A stretch of 38,220 bases of DNA, from positions 1 through 38,220 of IMG/VR virus record IMGVR_UViG_3300010334_000121; one strand, given 5' to 3'. How positions within the stretch are numbered: the first letter of the stretch is position 1; each line of letters begins with the position of its first letter. This DNA comes from a virus. The notes below the pieces were generated by a model. It worked only from the letters and a program-made list of their open reading frames with translations. It did no database searches and had not been told where the DNA came from. The translations under genes and the position numbers were made by a program. Shown here piece by piece: positions 3,541-36,242 of this stretch.

Positions 3541-4925
3541 GTGCCAAGCTCCTTGAAGCCCTACGCGCGGGCGCTCCGTTCGCTTGGGCATGTCAGATTG
3601 CGGGCGTCGATCCCGACGCGATGCGCGCGGCGGCGCGCGAGGACGACGAGCTCGCCGAGGAGCTCGAGGCGGCCGAAGCGGAGGGCGGTGCGAAGCGCGC
3701 GAAGGCCGCGCCGGCCGTCAACCGACCGTCGCCCACGGGCAAAGGCAAGGGCAAGGCGAAGGACGAACCCGAGGGCCTCGACGCGGCCGCGTTCGAACGC
3801 GAGGCGGCCGAGTATGGCGGCGGCGCGTATGGCTACCTCGCAGCGGTTGACGCGCGCCTCGTCGCACGCGGCTTCCCCGGTATGTCGCCGTGGTGGCGCT
3901 CGCAGGTTGAAGCGTTCTACGCGAGCGGCAAACGCTGGATGATCGTCATGGCCGGCCGCGGCGCCGGCAAGTCGACATCGCTTGTGCGCATCGCAGCCAC
4001 GGAGGCGCTGTTCACGCCGCGCACCATCCCGCCCGGTCAACGGTGGATATGGCCGTTCATCTCCGTAGCTACGAGCGACGCGCGGCGCCGCATCGTGGAG
4101 TTACAGGCCATCTTCGCGGCCCTCGGCGTCAACCTGACGCCCAAGTACCCGCAGGGCCACCCGACGCTCGAGCTCCTCGACGTGCGCGAGCAGCCCATCG
4201 CGTTCGTCTCGATTGCGAGCACCATCGCGGGCGTGTCGGGCCCGTCGACCATCGGGGCGACCATCGACGAGGAAGCGAAGCTCCGTGACAAGGCAAGCGG
4301 CGCGAACCCGTCGACGGAAATCCTCGCCTCGCTTCTACAGACGTTCCGCGCGCGGCCAGGCATCCGTGCCATTCGGTGCTCGTCGGCGTGGACGACGACG
4401 GGCAGCCACGCGCAGGCCATCGCAGACGGCGACACGTCGCAGAACCACATCGCACGCGTCGGGCCGGGCTTCGTGCCCGTGGTCGTCGACGGGCTCCTCG
4501 AGGTCGCGCAGCGCGAGGAGGCTCGCGGCGACGTCGAGAGCGCGAGGGCCATCCGCGCGCACGCGAGCACCATCACGGCCGACTCGGCCGCCATTCCGAC
4601 ATGGCTCGCGAACCCGACCATTACGGCCGTCGCGTGCCGCGACGAGGTCGACGCGATGCCCGTCGAGTCGCTTGGTGGCCTGTCGCGCGCCGCCTACTGG
4701 CTCCGCGAGAATGCCAGCGTACCGATGATGGGAGTGCATGGCTCCGCGATGGCAGGACGGCCCGACCTCGAGGGCTTCGCCCAGCGTGTGCGCGAGTTGA
4801 ACCAGCGCATCACGAGCGACCGCGACGCGCGGCTAATCCAGTTCGGCGGCCTGGGTTCGCTCGACCCACGCTCGCCGTCGCATCGGAGTGCGTCACTCAG
4901 CACGCATCGCAGGCGCGTCATGTGA
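3537..4925 (+). CDS. Terminase ATPase with N-terminal small-terminase-like HTH
   Basis: 462 residues. Residues 139-147 (AGRGAGKST) are the classic terminase Walker A, IGATIDEEA (239-247) the Walker B with catalytic acid, and CSSAW (281-285) the coupling motif. This is the DNA-packaging motor that pumps DNA through the portal. Residues 1-50 (ALRAGAPFAWACQIAGVDP, then an acidic helix) resemble the HTH of small terminases, followed by a Lys/Gly linker. After motif C about 175 residues remain, including PTWLANPTI as in other terminases, but I cannot see the three-acid RNase H-like nuclease centre. Nuclease activity may be absent, divergent or supplied by the RuvC-like neighbour. The start is fixed by an ATGA overlap. 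Confidence 0.85.
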   Translation: MSAKLLEALRAGAPFAWACQIAGVDPDAMRAAAREDDELAEELEAAEAEGGAKRAKAAPAVNRPSPTGKGKGKAKDEPEGLDAAAFEREAAEYGGGAYGYLAAVDARLVARGFPGMSPWWRSQVEAFYASGKRWMIVMAGRGAGKSTSLVRIAATEALFTPRTIPPGQRWIWPFISVATSDARRRIVELQAIFAALGVNLTPKYPQGHPTLELLDVREQPIAFVSIASTIAGVSGPSTIGATIDEEAKLRDKASGANPSTEILASLLQTFRARPGIRAIRCSSAWTTTGSHAQAIADGDTSQNHIARVGPGFVPVVVDGLLEVAQREEARGDVESARAIRAHASTITADSAAIPTWLANPTITAVACRDEVDAMPVESLGGLSRAAYWLRENASVPMMGVHGSAMAGRPDLEGFAQRVRELNQRITSDRDARLIQFGGLGSLDPRSPSHRSASLSTHRRRVM

Positions 4926-7441: not shown

Positions 7442-9211
7442 ATGCGCGCGGAGGTTATCGGCACCACAGGCGGCACGCTCGACGTGTACGAGGCCGACCT
7501 CGATCCGTCCGTGACCATCGTCACGGTGCGCGGCCCGCTCGAGCAGCGCGCGTCGCTGCACTCGGAGTGCGGTGGCTGGACGGACGGGCACGATGCCATC
7601 GCGGAGCGCCTCTGCGCGGCTCTGTGCGAGGGCGATGTGGTGCTCGTCATCGACTCGCCTGGCGGCGCGCACGCGGGGCTTCAAGAGGCCATTCGTCGCG
7701 TGCAGAAGTGCAAAGCTGACTACGGCCGACGCATCACGGCGTACGCCGACGAGATGATCGGCTCGGCCGCCTACTGGTGGGCCGCGACGGTCGCCGACGA
7801 AATCTACTTGCCCGAGGCGGGCATCGTAGGCTCGATTGGCGCGCGCTCGTCGCACTGCTCGGAGGCCGGACACCTCGCGCAAGAGGGCGTCGAGGTGACG
7901 TACTTCGCGGCGCCCGGCGCGGGCAAGGTCGCGTTTGCGCCCGAGCTGCCGCTCTCCGAGATTGGCAAACAGCGCGGCGAGCGCGACGTGTGGATCGCTT
8001 TCGAGGCGTTCGCGTCAGCCGTGAGCTCCTCGCGCGGTCTCTCGCGTGACGACTTGATCAAGCTCGACGCAGACGCGCTCACGGGGCAGATGGCCGTCGA
8101 CGCGGGCCTCGCGGACGGCGTCGCGTCGTTCGACGACGTGCTCGCCTACGCGCTCGCGATGGCGGGCGATGAGGGTGTCGCGACCTCCGACGAAGAGGCC
8201 GCGCCGACTGGCAACAACGCAAGCGGCGTAGTGGCCGCACGGAGACTGACAATGGCAGGACAGCCCGAGTCGCCCGAGCAAGTGAAGAAGCTCGACGAAC
8301 AGGCCCGCAAGATGGCCGAGAAGAAGATGCTCGAGTCGCTCGCCGCGAAGTACGCCGACGAGCTCGCCGAGAAGCACGCCGAGAAGATGGCAGAGGCCGA
8401 GGATGAGGAGTCCGACGAGGACTCCGACGCCGACGCCGATTCCGACTCGGATGGTGGCGGCGACGGCGGTGGTGGTGACGGCGGCGGCGGCGGCGGTGGC
8501 GGCGATGACGCCGACATGGCCGAGGTCGAGGACGAGGCCGACGAAGACGAGGAGGCTCCTCCGTCGTCGAAGAAGGCGATGCCGCCCCCGAAGCGCATGC
8601 AGCCGCCTCCGGCGAAGCAGGACCGCTCGGTGGCCGCGCTCTTCGGCCTCCACGCGAGCGCCAGCGCGCCCGCGGTCAAGGCGGCGGCTCTGCCCTACGT
8701 CTCGCTCGCGAAGGCCGCTCTGAGCGTCACGGGCGCCCGCACGGTGCGCGAGGCCGAGGGTGCGCTTCGCGCTCTCGCCGACGACGCGGCCGACGCGGTG
8801 CGGATGCGCGCCGAGCTCCGCGCGAGCAAGGCGCGCGAGGCTCGTCGCGAGCGCATGGACCTCCTCCGCAAGCTCGCCTCGGCGAACCTGCCCGGCTACA
8901 CGCGCGGCGACCTGTTCGTCGACGTCGAGTCGAATGGCAAGCTCGTGCCGGTGCCCGCGCCGATGTACGACGAGATGAAGCTCTCGACGCTTCGTGGTCT
9001 CGTGAATGGCAAGCTGAAGAGCGCGCCTTCGACGCAGGTCGCGCCGTTCCAGCCCTCGCAGACTGCCGCCGTGCAGGCTGCCAACCAGGCCACGGTCGAC
9101 GTCGTCGCGCCGCAGGCCACGCAGTTCTCTGGCCGCTCTACGGCCTCGACGGACAAGCTCGCCGCGGCGGCCGCTGCACTCATGCAGATGGGCGCCTTCT
9201 CCAACGGTTGA
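7442..9211 (+). CDS. Head maturation protease (S49, SppA-like) fused to scaffold
   Basis: 589 residues. It starts one base after the previous stop, with GAGGAGAG upstream. Residues 1-235 form an SppA/S49-type serine protease: VLVIDSPGG (67-75), the nucleophile Ser108 in EMIGSAAYWW, GIVGSIGA (127-134) and TGQMAVDAGLADGV (214-227). It trims the scaffold and head proteins during maturation. Residues 271-330 are a charged coiled coil, 340-375 an Asp/Ser then poly-Gly linker, and the C-terminal 200 residues look like a scaffold with a helical LRALADDAADAVRMRAELRA stretch. The design parallels lambda gpC with its nested scaffold Nu3. Confidence 0.85.
   Translation: MRAEVIGTTGGTLDVYEADLDPSVTIVTVRGPLEQRASLHSECGGWTDGHDAIAERLCAALCEGDVVLVIDSPGGAHAGLQEAIRRVQKCKADYGRRITAYADEMIGSAAYWWAATVADEIYLPEAGIVGSIGARSSHCSEAGHLAQEGVEVTYFAAPGAGKVAFAPELPLSEIGKQRGERDVWIAFEAFASAVSSSRGLSRDDLIKLDADALTGQMAVDAGLADGVASFDDVLAYALAMAGDEGVATSDEEAAPTGNNASGVVAARRLTMAGQPESPEQVKKLDEQARKMAEKKMLESLAAKYADELAEKHAEKMAEAEDEESDEDSDADADSDSDGGGDGGGGDGGGGGGGGDDADMAEVEDEADEDEEAPPSSKKAMPPPKRMQPPPAKQDRSVAALFGLHASASAPAVKAAALPYVSLAKAALSVTGARTVREAEGALRALADDAADAVRMRAELRASKAREARRERMDLLRKLASANLPGYTRGDLFVDVESNGKLVPVPAPMYDEMKLSTLRGLVNGKLKSAPSTQVAPFQPSQTAAVQAANQATVDVVAPQATQFSGRSTASTDKLAAAAAALMQMGAFSNG
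8252..9211 (+). CDS. Nested scaffold protein from an internal start
   Basis: An in-frame ATG at 8252 (Met271 of the protease) is preceded by GGAG at 8241-8244 with a seven-base gap, a good ribosome binding site inside the coding region. The product would be 319 residues beginning MAGQPESPEQVKK: a coiled coil, acidic-glycine linker and the C-terminal helical part. In lambda the equivalent nested product (Nu3) is the free scaffold around which capsids assemble. The start is seen in sequence; that it is used is inference from family behaviour. Confidence 0.5.
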   Translation: MAGQPESPEQVKKLDEQARKMAEKKMLESLAAKYADELAEKHAEKMAEAEDEESDEDSDADADSDSDGGGDGGGGDGGGGGGGGDDADMAEVEDEADEDEEAPPSSKKAMPPPKRMQPPPAKQDRSVAALFGLHASASAPAVKAAALPYVSLAKAALSVTGARTVREAEGALRALADDAADAVRMRAELRASKAREARRERMDLLRKLASANLPGYTRGDLFVDVESNGKLVPVPAPMYDEMKLSTLRGLVNGKLKSAPSTQVAPFQPSQTAAVQAANQATVDVVAPQATQFSGRSTASTDKLAAAAAALMQMGAFSNG

Positions 9212-30801: not shown

Positions 30802-31158
30802 CTAGTCGAGCCAGAGCGTCGGGTCGCACGCGGGCACCTCGCGCGCGAGCCTCGCGGCCTCAATGTGCGCCTCGTACGCAAGAGCGTCGCCCGTCTCGAC
30901 CCAGTGCTCCCACGCGGCCGCGCAGACGGTCCCCAGGCGCGTCGCGAGCGACAGGACGGCCGGAAGGTCAGCCACGGCGGCAAGGACGATTCTACGGGCG
31001 CCTGTGAGCCGCGGCGGGGCGTCGAGGACGGCGGCCCGCAACGCCTCCCGCTCGGCGTCGACCGCGGAGGGCCGACGCGCGAGCAAGAGGGTTGCGAGGC
31101 GCAGCACCGCGACGGCCTCGAGGCTGGACGCGAGGGCGTCGGCGAGCTCGGGGGTCAG
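30802..31158 (-). CDS. Hypothetical helical protein, last gene of the leftward operon
   Basis: About 118 residues if translation begins at CTG 31158-31156, which overlaps the nuclease stop as CTGA and fits the operon's habit; no ATG is available nearby, and a GTG at 31248 would overlap the nuclease deeply. The protein is almost all helix, A/L/R-rich (LADALASSLEAVAVLRLATL, IVLAAVADLPAVLSLATRLG), ending in ACDPTLWLD. No domain is recognised. The start codon choice is unusual and uncertain. It ends with TAG directly against the rightward block. Confidence 0.45.
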   Translation of the reverse strand: MTPELADALASSLEAVAVLRLATLLLARRPSAVDAEREALRAAVLDAPPRLTGARRIVLAAVADLPAVLSLATRLGTVCAAAWEHWVETGDALAYEAHIEAARLAREVPACDPTLWLD

Positions 31159-31562
31159 CGCATCGCTTGACGTATGGCCTCCTCGGCTTCCTCTACCGTC
31201 CGGACGATGGCGACGTGTACGCCGCGGCGAATGGCCGCCTCGCACCACGCGAGCTGCTCGGGTCGCACGCGGCCGGTGGGGCTCTTCAACTCGAGGCCGA
31301 AGGCGCGCCCGTCGACGGCGCCGACGAGGTCGGGGCTGCCAACGCCGAGGCCGTAGGTGATGCGGTTCGTGGTGAGCACGCGCGCGGCGGTAGCGCGGCA
31401 GTGCGGGCAGAGTTCGCGCGCGAGGAGTGGGCCGACGTTGCCGGTGTGGCCTGAGCCGACCTCGTTGCGGAAGATGGTCAGCGAGGGCAAGTCCGCGCGC
31501 TGTAGGGCGCCGACGCGGGCGAGCACGGCGCGTTCGAGCGCGGCTTCCGGTCTAGCGGGCAT
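31155..31562 (-). CDS. VRR-NUC family nuclease
   Basis: 135 residues from an ATG at 31562 with GGGGAG upstream. It has the PD-(D/E)XK-type VRR-NUC pattern: FRNEVGSGHTGNVG (31-44), GSPDLVG with Asp78, GLELKSPTG with Glu91 and Lys93, and the downstream Gln103 in RVRPEQLAWCEAA, then a closing AIVRTVEEAEEAI. These nucleases are often found in phages near helicases and replication genes and cut branched or single-strand DNA. An extra CPHC motif (52-55) could bind zinc. It overlaps the extended reading of the mom-like gene by 11 bases. Confidence 0.7.
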   Translation of the reverse strand: MPARPEAALERAVLARVGALQRADLPSLTIFRNEVGSGHTGNVGPLLARELCPHCRATAARVLTTNRITYGLGVGSPDLVGAVDGRAFGLELKSPTGRVRPEQLAWCEAAIRRGVHVAIVRTVEEAEEAIRQAMR

Positions 31563-32150
31563 GTGCTCCCCACCGTGCATAATCACCGCCACCTGTGCCT
31601 CGAATTGGATTCCCCTTGCGGAACTTCGGCTCGCGATAGCCTGCGCCGGGAAACCGCCTTTCGTAACTAGCATCTAGAGACAAAATCCGCTCCCTGTCTG
31701 AGTCTTCTCGTATGACCCAGATCCAACGATCCTTGATTTCTTGCTTCTTCTCGCCATCCCACGAACCCCCACGGCTGGGGGGGGCACCATTCGGTGCCAC
31801 GTTGGCGCCCATATCCAGTTGCATGCTCGATAGAGCGAGCCCGTGTGACCCACGGACGGATCGGAGTAGCTGACGACGGTGGTTGCTCTGGGGCATTCGT
31901 TGGCTATCCACTTGGAAGCTGACGACCACTGTCGAGATCCTCCGTTCTTTTCACCTGTAAGGCACCATCGAGCGAGCTCTAACCATTCCTTCGGAAGCCT
32001 CCTAGATGCGGGGGAGGCAAACACGATGACGCCGAAATCGTCTCGGTAGGTAAAACTTCCTCTTGCCGATGGCCCTAGATAGTGCCTTTCGGCGAGGATC
32101 GCGTCCGTTGGAAAATCGCGAATAGCGAATGGCAGCGCAGCCTGTTTCAT
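31552..32150 (-). CDS. Mom-like DNA modification protein, split at a C8 tract
   Basis: The first frame, from the ATG at 32150, encodes the N-terminal part of a Mom-like GNAT-fold protein: ILAERHYLGPSARGSF, DDFGVIVFASP, ELARWCLTGEKNGGSRQWSS, then VVSYSDPSVGHTGSLYRACN and WIWAPTWHR. In Mu, Mom converts adenines to N6-(1-acetamido)adenine and protects DNA from restriction. At eight consecutive C (31784-31777) the good frame changes: the continuation SRGGSWDGEKKQEIKDRWIW and later GYREPKFRKG lies in the -1 frame and runs to TAG at 31552. A ninth C or a -1 slip would give one protein of about 199 residues. The frame as written ends at 31674 in unlikely sequence. The region is GC-poor. Confidence 0.65.
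31777..31784. repeat. Homopolymer of eight G (C8 on the coding strand)
   Basis: Eight consecutive G on the plus strand lie where the two halves of the mom-like gene change frame. Mononucleotide tracts of this length are prone to slippage in replication and to sequencing error. The length decides whether the full-length protein can be read without ribosomal slippage (nine would restore the frame). Confidence 0.9.
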
Positions 32151-32254
32151 GTGGTCCGACCAGTCGCGCACTCCTCGCACGCAATCGTCGGCATCTCCTC
32201 GGGCGAGACGCAAAGCGCCCCGTGCTCGCACCGATGCGCCGGCAGCATCGTCAC
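32147..32254 (-). CDS. 35-residue Com-like metal-binding mini-protein
   Basis: From GTG at 32254 (GTGA overlap with the gene upstream; an ATG at 32263 is an alternative giving 38 residues) to TGA at 32147-32149, overlapping the mom-like ATG as ATGA. It contains HRCEHGALC and, 10 residues on, CEEC, so up to six Cys/His ligands in 24 residues. In Mu the small zinc protein Com is encoded directly before mom, overlaps it and is needed for its translation. The position, size and metal motif agree, but the sequence is too short to prove homology. Confidence 0.45.
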   Translation of the reverse strand: MTMLPAHRCEHGALCVSPEEMPTIACEECATGRTT

Positions 32255-32721
32255 GCGAGCCATGCTGGCCTTTCCGAGCGCGTCCAGCGCGCCCGTGTGC
32301 CCCAGGATGCGACCTTCGTGCGGTAGTAGGCCCGGTAGGCGCTGACGGCGTCGTCGCCCTTCAGCTCGACCGGCATCGCTTGGGCGAACGGCGTACGCGG
32401 TCCCTCGGGTAGCGAGTCGAGCGCGACCGCCGCTTCCTCGAGCGCGTCGGCGCTGCCATGCGTGCGGCCGTAGCGCGACGTGTACTCGGCGAGCAGCGCG
32501 CGACCGTGGGCGACGAGCCACGCGAAGTTGGCTTGTGTGGCCCCAGCCCACCGCGTGCAGGGATGCGCCTCGTGCGTCGAGCGGTAGCGCACCTCGAGGC
32601 CGACAGAGCGCGCGACGGTAGAGGCTATCTGAGCGGTTTCGAGGCACATCTTCACGACGTGAACGTCTGCGAGGGCTTGTGCTGCGCGCACGGGGTCGTC
32701 GTCGACCGCAAAAATGTTCAC
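32251..32721 (-). CDS. Conserved phage protein (DVHVVKM family)
   Basis: 156 residues from GTG at 32721 with GAAGGAG about ten bases upstream. It shows the pattern of a widespread T4-like and cyanophage protein: NIFAVDDDPVRAAQALAD, DVHVVKMCLETAQIAST, HPCTRWAGATQANFAWLV, LLAEYTSRYGRTH, TPFAQAMPVELKGDDAVSAY and RAYYRTKVA. Some family members are annotated as having a pyrimidine-dimer-glycosylase-like fold, but activity is not established. It is embedded in the DNA-metabolism operon, overlapped by GTGA on both sides. Confidence 0.6.
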   Translation of the reverse strand: MNIFAVDDDPVRAAQALADVHVVKMCLETAQIASTVARSVGLEVRYRSTHEAHPCTRWAGATQANFAWLVAHGRALLAEYTSRYGRTHGSADALEEAAVALDSLPEGPRTPFAQAMPVELKGDDAVSAYRAYYRTKVASWGTRARWTRSERPAWLA

Positions 32722-32885
32722 TTGGTTGGCTCCTTCGGGGTGTTCTCGCCACCGGTTAGGTCGATGACCATCGTGCCCTCTTCGTCGACTAGGGTTGACG
32801 AGAGGTCGAACGCGGGGCGCTCGTGGGCGCAGGGGCGGGTGGCGCGGCACTTGGGGCAGGGGGCGTAACGGGGTTCAAGTCGCAT
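32718..32885 (-). CDS. Small zinc-ribbon-like protein
   Basis: 55 residues from ATG at 32885, two bases after the previous stop. The N-terminal half has RYAPCPKCRATRPCAHERP with three Cys and a His in zinc-finger spacing (CxxC...C.H); the rest is acidic with VIDLTGGE. It ends in a GTGA overlap with the DVHVVKM-family gene. Too short for family assignment; a nucleic-acid or protein-binding accessory is the natural guess. Confidence 0.5.
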   Translation of the reverse strand: MRLEPRYAPCPKCRATRPCAHERPAFDLSSTLVDEEGTMVIDLTGGENTPKEPTK

Positions 32886-34846: not shown

Positions 34847-35307
34847 GCGCGCCCCGTCGAGCCGAAGCCCCCGGCCCCGCGCTCGGTAGCGTCCAGCGCC
34901 TCGACCTCCACCGCCTCGCACCGCGCGACCGGCGAGACGACGAGCTGCGCGAGCCGCTCGCCGTGCTCGAACTCGACGGGCTCGCGCCCCAGGTTCGCGA
35001 GGCCCACGCGGATCTCGCCGCGGTATCCGGCGTCAATCGTCCCGTGCGCGCAGTGGAGTCCGCGCAGGAACAGCGACGAGCGCGGCCGGATCTCGCCCTG
35101 GTAGCCCTCTGGGATTGCGACCGCGAGGCCGGTGCGCAGCAGAACGCGCCCGCCTGGGTAGAGGCGCAGGCACGCGGGGCTTCGGGTGTAGTCGTAGCCC
35201 TCCGCGCCGTCGAGCGCGATTCGGAGGTCGAGGCCGGCGTCGCCCGCGCGCGCGTAGGCGGGCGGCGGGAGGGTGGGGTCGATGCGGCGGATGGGTAATG
35301 ACGGCAT
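34843..35307 (-). CDS. dUTPase
   Basis: 154 residues from ATG at 35307, which overlaps the methylase stop (TAATG). All five trimeric dUTPase motifs are visible: AGDAGLDL (21-28), PRSSL (75-79), GTIDAGYRGEIRV (89-101, containing the catalytic Asp), GERLAQLV (116-123) and RGAGGFGSTG (143-152, the phosphate-binding tail). The enzyme splits dUTP to dUMP and pyrophosphate, keeping uracil out of DNA and providing dUMP for thymidylate synthesis. A phage copy supports replication. This is one of the most secure calls in the window. Confidence 0.95.
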   Translation of the reverse strand: MPSLPIRRIDPTLPPPAYARAGDAGLDLRIALDGAEGYDYTRSPACLRLYPGGRVLLRTGLAVAIPEGYQGEIRPRSSLFLRGLHCAHGTIDAGYRGEIRVGLANLGREPVEFEHGERLAQLVVSPVARCEAVEVEALDATERGAGGFGSTGRA

Positions 35308-36242
35308 TAGAACAGGCTCCTTTGCTTGTCGGTAGAGAGGCACCCCGGCGAGAACCACACGCGCTCGCGGTGCGAGTTTTTGTTCGTTCCGTCGCGGCGC
35401 TGACTGCCGAAGCCGCCATGCGCCTTCCAAAACACCGCGCGCCACGACGACGGCATATCGTGCTCGCCCTCGTAGCCACAGAGTGCGATGCGAAGGCGCG
35501 TGTCGTCGCCGTGCTCGACGGCCCACGCGCGCACGTCCGCGGAGATTCCACGGCCGCCAGCGGCATAGTCAATCGCGCCGTCGCAGTACGGCGGATCGAG
35601 GAAGATTCCCGTCGTGCCATGGCGCCACGTCACGGAGTCGCCGAGCACGCGCGTCCAGTCCCCGCATGCGACGCGCACGCGACGGAGGCGAGCGGCGAGC
35701 GTGGATAGATAGGCGGCCAAGGGGATAGGCTCGTCGCCCATGCCCGCGCCGAGGTGCGGGAGCTGCCGATGCACGCCCATGCCCGCGCCGAGGTGCGGGA
35801 GCTGCCGATGCACGCCCCTGCCCGCGCCGCCGTCGTTCCACGTCTCCTCGCGGCACCAGCCCGAGCCAATCCAACCGCACAGACCATAGACCCACCATCC
35901 GGCAACCTTCGCGTCGTGGAAGTGCGGGTCACGCATCATTCGTTCACGGAAGTCGGCCTGCGCAACAAGCCAGTGGTGCCGCGCTTCGATCTCGGCCTCG
36001 TTCACGGGCACGTCGGCCCACTTCGCTACGGCCTCCGGCTCGGCCTGGAGTGCGCGCCAAAAGTTCGCAAGATAGCAGTCGCGGTCGTTGACCGTCTCGG
36101 TATGCGGCTCATGCGGTCGGCCGAGTAGGACGGCGAGCGAACCCGCGAACGGCTCGACGTAGTTCGGCACGTCGCCGAATGCCTCCCAGACGATAGGGGC
36201 CACGCGGCTCTTGCCGCCGAACCAAGGGAACGGTGCCTTCAC
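35307..36242 (-). CDS. D12-class DNA adenine N6-methyltransferase (Dam-like)
   Basis: 311 residues from GTG at 36242 (GTGA overlap with the helicase, GGAG just upstream). The usual motifs are in order: PFPWFGGKSR (4-13) for S-adenosylmethionine binding, NYVEPFAGSLAVLLGRP, NDRD (52-55), then FLDPPYCD (214-221), the catalytic DPPY. It would methylate adenine in the phage DNA, giving restriction protection or regulation. Between the AdoMet and DPPY parts, a 13-residue tandem repeat (VHRQLPHLGAGMG twice plus a partial copy) sits in the likely target-recognition region. The target sequence cannot be read from the protein. Confidence 0.85.
   Translation of the reverse strand: MKAPFPWFGGKSRVAPIVWEAFGDVPNYVEPFAGSLAVLLGRPHEPHTETVNDRDCYLANFWRALQAEPEAVAKWADVPVNEAEIEARHHWLVAQADFRERMMRDPHFHDAKVAGWWVYGLCGWIGSGWCREETWNDGGAGRGVHRQLPHLGAGMGVHRQLPHLGAGMGDEPIPLAAYLSTLAARLRRVRVACGDWTRVLGDSVTWRHGTTGIFLDPPYCDGAIDYAAGGRGISADVRAWAVEHGDDTRLRIALCGYEGEHDMPSSWRAVFWKAHGGFGSQRRDGTNKNSHRERVWFSPGCLSTDKQRSLF
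35735..35829. repeat. 39-bp tandem repeat inside the methylase gene
   Basis: Copy one is 35735-35773, copy two 35774-35812, and a partial third copy begins at 35813 with one early mismatch. The unit starts CGCCCATGCCCGCGCCGAGG and is in frame, so changes in copy number would add or remove 13 residues without breaking the protein. Confidence 0.85.

Follow-up and report, generated by a model that had tools for sequence, protein, structure and literature searches.

What does it mean that a DNA modification gene in a phage genome changes reading frame at a run of eight C? The gene lies in a virus record of 38,220 bases with 68% GC, which we refer to in its whole length as the window. On the minus strand, two frames meet exactly at the eight C (G8 on the plus strand, 31777–31784). 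The first opens at ATG 32150, stops at 31674 and encodes 158 amino acids; the second, in the -1 frame, continues past the run to a stop at 31552 and reads SRGGSWDGEKKQEIKDRW beyond it. ATG 32150 is most likely the start of the gene because it forms an ATGA overlap with a small ORF upstream, and 366 nt of the gene precede the run, which begins at a codon boundary. Joined through the run, the two frames would encode 125 + 74 = 199 residues and end 11 bases within the downstream VRR-NUC gene (ATG 31562). The first frame alone leaves a gap of 111 bases ahead of that ATG, and joining the two frames brings back the operon's overlaps. A preliminary description of this DNA had proposed the junction at the run, the length of the joined product and its fit to the operon, and all three agree with our frame maps, translation and family HMMs. 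A whole Mom domain in one open frame is absent from the record because the frame breaks at 31777–31784, and a gene model based on ORF calling alone would be too short.

Profile searches place both parts in the Mom family. The first part (31785–32150, minus strand, residues 1–122) matches Pfam Mom (PF25680) at E = 4e-14 with 53.1 bits (curated cut-off 27.1), a family that all 35 aligned relatives match as well, and PHROG 1384 (Mom-like DNA modification protein) at E = 2e-14. We built separate HMMs from the relatives' parts before and after a conserved Pro-Pro-Pro and ran them on the six-frame translation of the window. The N-terminal HMM found one segment at E = 1.2e-55 (next best 0.35), the C-terminal HMM one segment at E = 6.9e-17 (next best 0.43), and the two segments lie in the frames that join at the C run. 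The latter match answers the concern, raised in the preliminary description, that the -1 segment might have no Mom homologues. The second part (31552–31776, minus strand) contains the Q..KDRW strand and the GGDYxRW end, and its family likeness extends to the last residues, GGDYARW (GGDYKRW in relatives). By frames and alignment, the tail of the first frame beyond the run (31674–31776, minus strand) has no such likeness. Because each HMM finds a single segment and the likeness reaches the last residues, the split gene is, as judged from its sequence, one Mom-family gene with one lesion. The enzyme's predicted role is probably to protect phage DNA from restriction.

We then placed the lesion on a predicted structure. 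The model was made for a relative, L017, together with its own relatives (35 sequences, pLDDT 94). The fold best matches Mom of phage Mu (PDB 8bv8; VIA-align Z 14.2 over 153 residues, next 10.7), which, with PF25680 and PHROG 1384, upholds the earlier naming of the gene as Mom-like. Through L017, the HY pair, the SFAD Asp and S124, the serine altered in the structure of inactive Mu Mom, align with conserved residues, and the window's first part, which also aligns with Mu Mom, keeps the active-site counterparts GSRQW, HYLG and SYSDP. The frame break corresponds to the loop after residue 119 of L017. The product of the eight-C frame would be without strand 135–140, the last core GNAT strand, and the invariant K134, R136 and W137 (L017 numbering); given these losses, we infer that the truncated protein is almost surely inactive.

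Relatives show how the site looks in intact genes. Scans of viral and genome contigs yielded about 46 related loci, with just two further relatives coming from the genome contigs, and 37 were aligned across the frame-break site. Every one is in a single frame through PTWHRL-x-PPP-(T/S)G-x-G-W...Q..KDRW. By homopolymer scan, alignment and codon comparison, the eight C make up the codons of the conserved Pro-Pro-Pro; in the relatives, other bases (G, A or T) mostly interrupt the proline codons there. Distinct relatives have at most 2–6 C in a row at the site, with the exception of L017, which has nine C, in frame, and is the 1 in 37 with a run of more than six. The alignment thus indicates that the run is no family feature but a repeat tract not kept in homologues. 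We also compared divergence before and after the run for signs of relaxed selection or an old break. Among all sequences compared, the window's second part has the lowest mean identity (0.38) and the longest terminal branch; its second-to-first-part divergence ratio ranks eighth of 36, within the range of some relatives. Megablast and protein searches in phages found no near-identical or sister virus, and neither an exact pattern search nor the terminase-like and head-protease proteins led to a sister virus. No Mom-bearing relative was found to share the neighbourhood. The locus extends the Mom family by a member from an uncultured phage, to which the collections searched contain no near relatives. 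A second, independently broken Mom-like family member is L045 (IMGVR_UViG_3300037180_000021, 3980–4540), where an internal deletion joins IPG to the YSDPS motif out of frame.

The run itself is the sole homopolymer of at least seven bases in the 38,220-base window. A first-order Markov model of the window predicts about 0.8 C or G runs of eight or more, so as such it is not unusual. Of the 329 proline codons in the other genes of the window, 100 are CCC and, since the runs of relatives are mostly interrupted, the tract can be seen as a possible outcome of three proline codons in GC-rich DNA.

We consider it highly probable that the break is isolated and incidental: one base slipped at a run prone to slippage, in an otherwise whole gene, and this serves no regulatory role. 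All 37 relatives are in a single frame, conservation of the run is lacking and the window has no other long homopolymer; loss is also seen elsewhere in the family, in L045. From this pattern we infer the absence of a regulatory role. That both parts match the family, and that nothing else disrupts the gene as far as its last residues, supports the same reading. In a large survey, a lone frame break confirmed by homology was likewise read as a sequencing error or an indel mutation (PMC3711429). A point against an incidental slip is that an identical tract in a modification gene would also look like a phase switch.

The course of events may have been as follows. The mom gene (31560–32150) is a low-GC island, at 56.5% GC versus 69–72% in the two flanking genes, a sign that it was probably acquired laterally; such an island is in keeping with an accessory gene that arrived recently and may be lost as well. 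In this gene the conserved Pro-Pro-Pro happens to be coded almost wholly in C; with the run at eight C, as in the record, the frame breaks and the protein is cut short. That the base was truly lost in the sampled phage has, in our estimate, a little under an even chance. A base miscounted in sequencing or assembly is a credible if less probable source; eight C are usually counted correctly in short-read assemblies, which argues somewhat against pure sequencing error. The preliminary description had listed decay and miscounting among its options, and with relatives intact and the run not conserved, the pair fits best.

The strongest competitor, in our judgement improbable, treats the run as a contingency tract in which replication slippage alternately activates and silences Mom across the phage population, a trade-off between protection from restriction and cost. 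The break does sit exactly in the window's sole long homopolymer, the second part of the gene is otherwise whole, and in another contig, L121, the frame of a phage methyltransferase likewise breaks at a G11 run. Host methyltransferase genes do switch via poly-C and poly-G tracts (PMC3711429). A contingency tract should be kept, yet only one in 37 distinct relatives exceeds six C, which gives no support to a conserved phase switch; a switch confined to this lineage is weakly possible. Eight C is also short for a contingency tract. An exact pattern search found no second run length in this virus, and at the codon usage given above, a fixed Pro-Pro-Pro should now and then be written with nearly three CCC codons. 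The earlier proposal of phase variation therefore holds as to a break at a homopolymer in a modification gene and falters on the lack of conservation. That the phage toggles its own anti-restriction modification by slippage at the run, giving mixed modified and unmodified virions, seems unlikely; more than one tract length in reads would make it notable as phase-variable modification of virion DNA. A literature search on homopolymer-switched phage genes returned nothing direct, and searches on the chemistry of Mom yielded little.

Programmed slippage was also suggested at the outset and is in our view very unlikely. In such recoding, a programmed -1 shift of the ribosome on the eight C, or slippage there during transcription, would join the frames and so limit a costly enzyme. 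The required shift is indeed -1, the run is homopolymeric and Pro-Pro-Pro would be unchanged in both products of the joining. Homologues should share a shift site, however, and none of the 37 aligned relatives needs or has one. Over the 77 nt that follow the run, no stem exceeded chance expectation (z 0.88 and 0.11), with z -1.6 over 117 nt. Proline tRNAs on runs of C tend to slip by +1, and a +1 shift at this run leads to a third frame without Mom likeness. Known slippage tracts, moreover, are mostly of A or T (PMC3711429). With single-frame relatives, no conserved shift site and no nearby stem, we rejected programmed slippage. Two separate genes, or a two-chain enzyme with the second part made from its own start, are scarcely credible: possible starts in the -1 frame are a GTG at 31929 and inner ATGs, but ahead of the run this frame only overlaps the Mom frame, the family match starts only after the run, none of the 37 aligned relatives is split and the cut lies inside a single GNAT domain.

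The broken mom gene sits in a tightly overlapping set on the minus strand. First comes a pyrimidine dimer DNA glycosylase-like gene (32251–32850; PF03013, E = 8e-7; PHROG 624), followed by a small Cys/His-rich ORF (32147–32254) with a GTGA overlap to the preceding gene and an ATGA overlap to mom, then mom itself and the VRR-NUC nuclease gene (31155–31562; PF08774, E = 1e-5), whose first 11 bases, from the ATG, are shared with the end of the joined Mom frame. The small ORF carries an HRCEH...C...CEEC pattern, and its size, cysteines and position recall Mu Com; it offers a lead as a candidate Com homologue, and no counterpart was found upstream of the relatives' mom genes. The same phage also encodes a Dam-like D12 adenine methyltransferase, a dUTPase and a helicase, which together with the mom set make up a cluster of DNA modification and repair genes on the minus strand. 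The D12 gene (35307–36242, minus strand), in which only the first 70 profile positions were matched, was considered as a second frame break, and this was rejected: it is whole in one frame, with DPPY. It contains an exact in-frame tandem duplication of 39 bases at 35734–35812, GVHRQLPHLGAGM twice, in the variable middle region of the methyltransferase. In L121 (IMGVR_UViG_3300028800_000010, 8001–9136), a relative of this D12 methyltransferase, the frame change at the G11 run (8664–8674) falls in the variable middle region, and in L124 the frame breaks within the same region, with no long run present.

Three known systems or groups invite comparison. The phase-variable DNA methyltransferases of bacteria (reviewed in works that PMC3711429 cites) share with this locus a poly-C or poly-G run in a DNA modification gene that is out of frame at the length recorded; here, however, the run is not conserved, the gene belongs to a phage and no second allele was found. 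The Mom-like group from uncultured phages (L002–L049) is 50–60% identical to the window's gene and has the same order of motifs, including PTWHRL-PPP and Q..KDRW, but its members keep one frame at the site and lie in other gene neighbourhoods. Mu Mom (8bv8, named methylcarbamoylase Mom; PF25680) differs in sequence, with about 18% identity in the structural alignment with L017, and the window's gene is frame-broken in the record, shorter and without Mu's N-terminal extension. The two nevertheless share the GNAT fold, the aligned HY, S124 and SFAD Asp positions and the placement of mom among small accessory genes.
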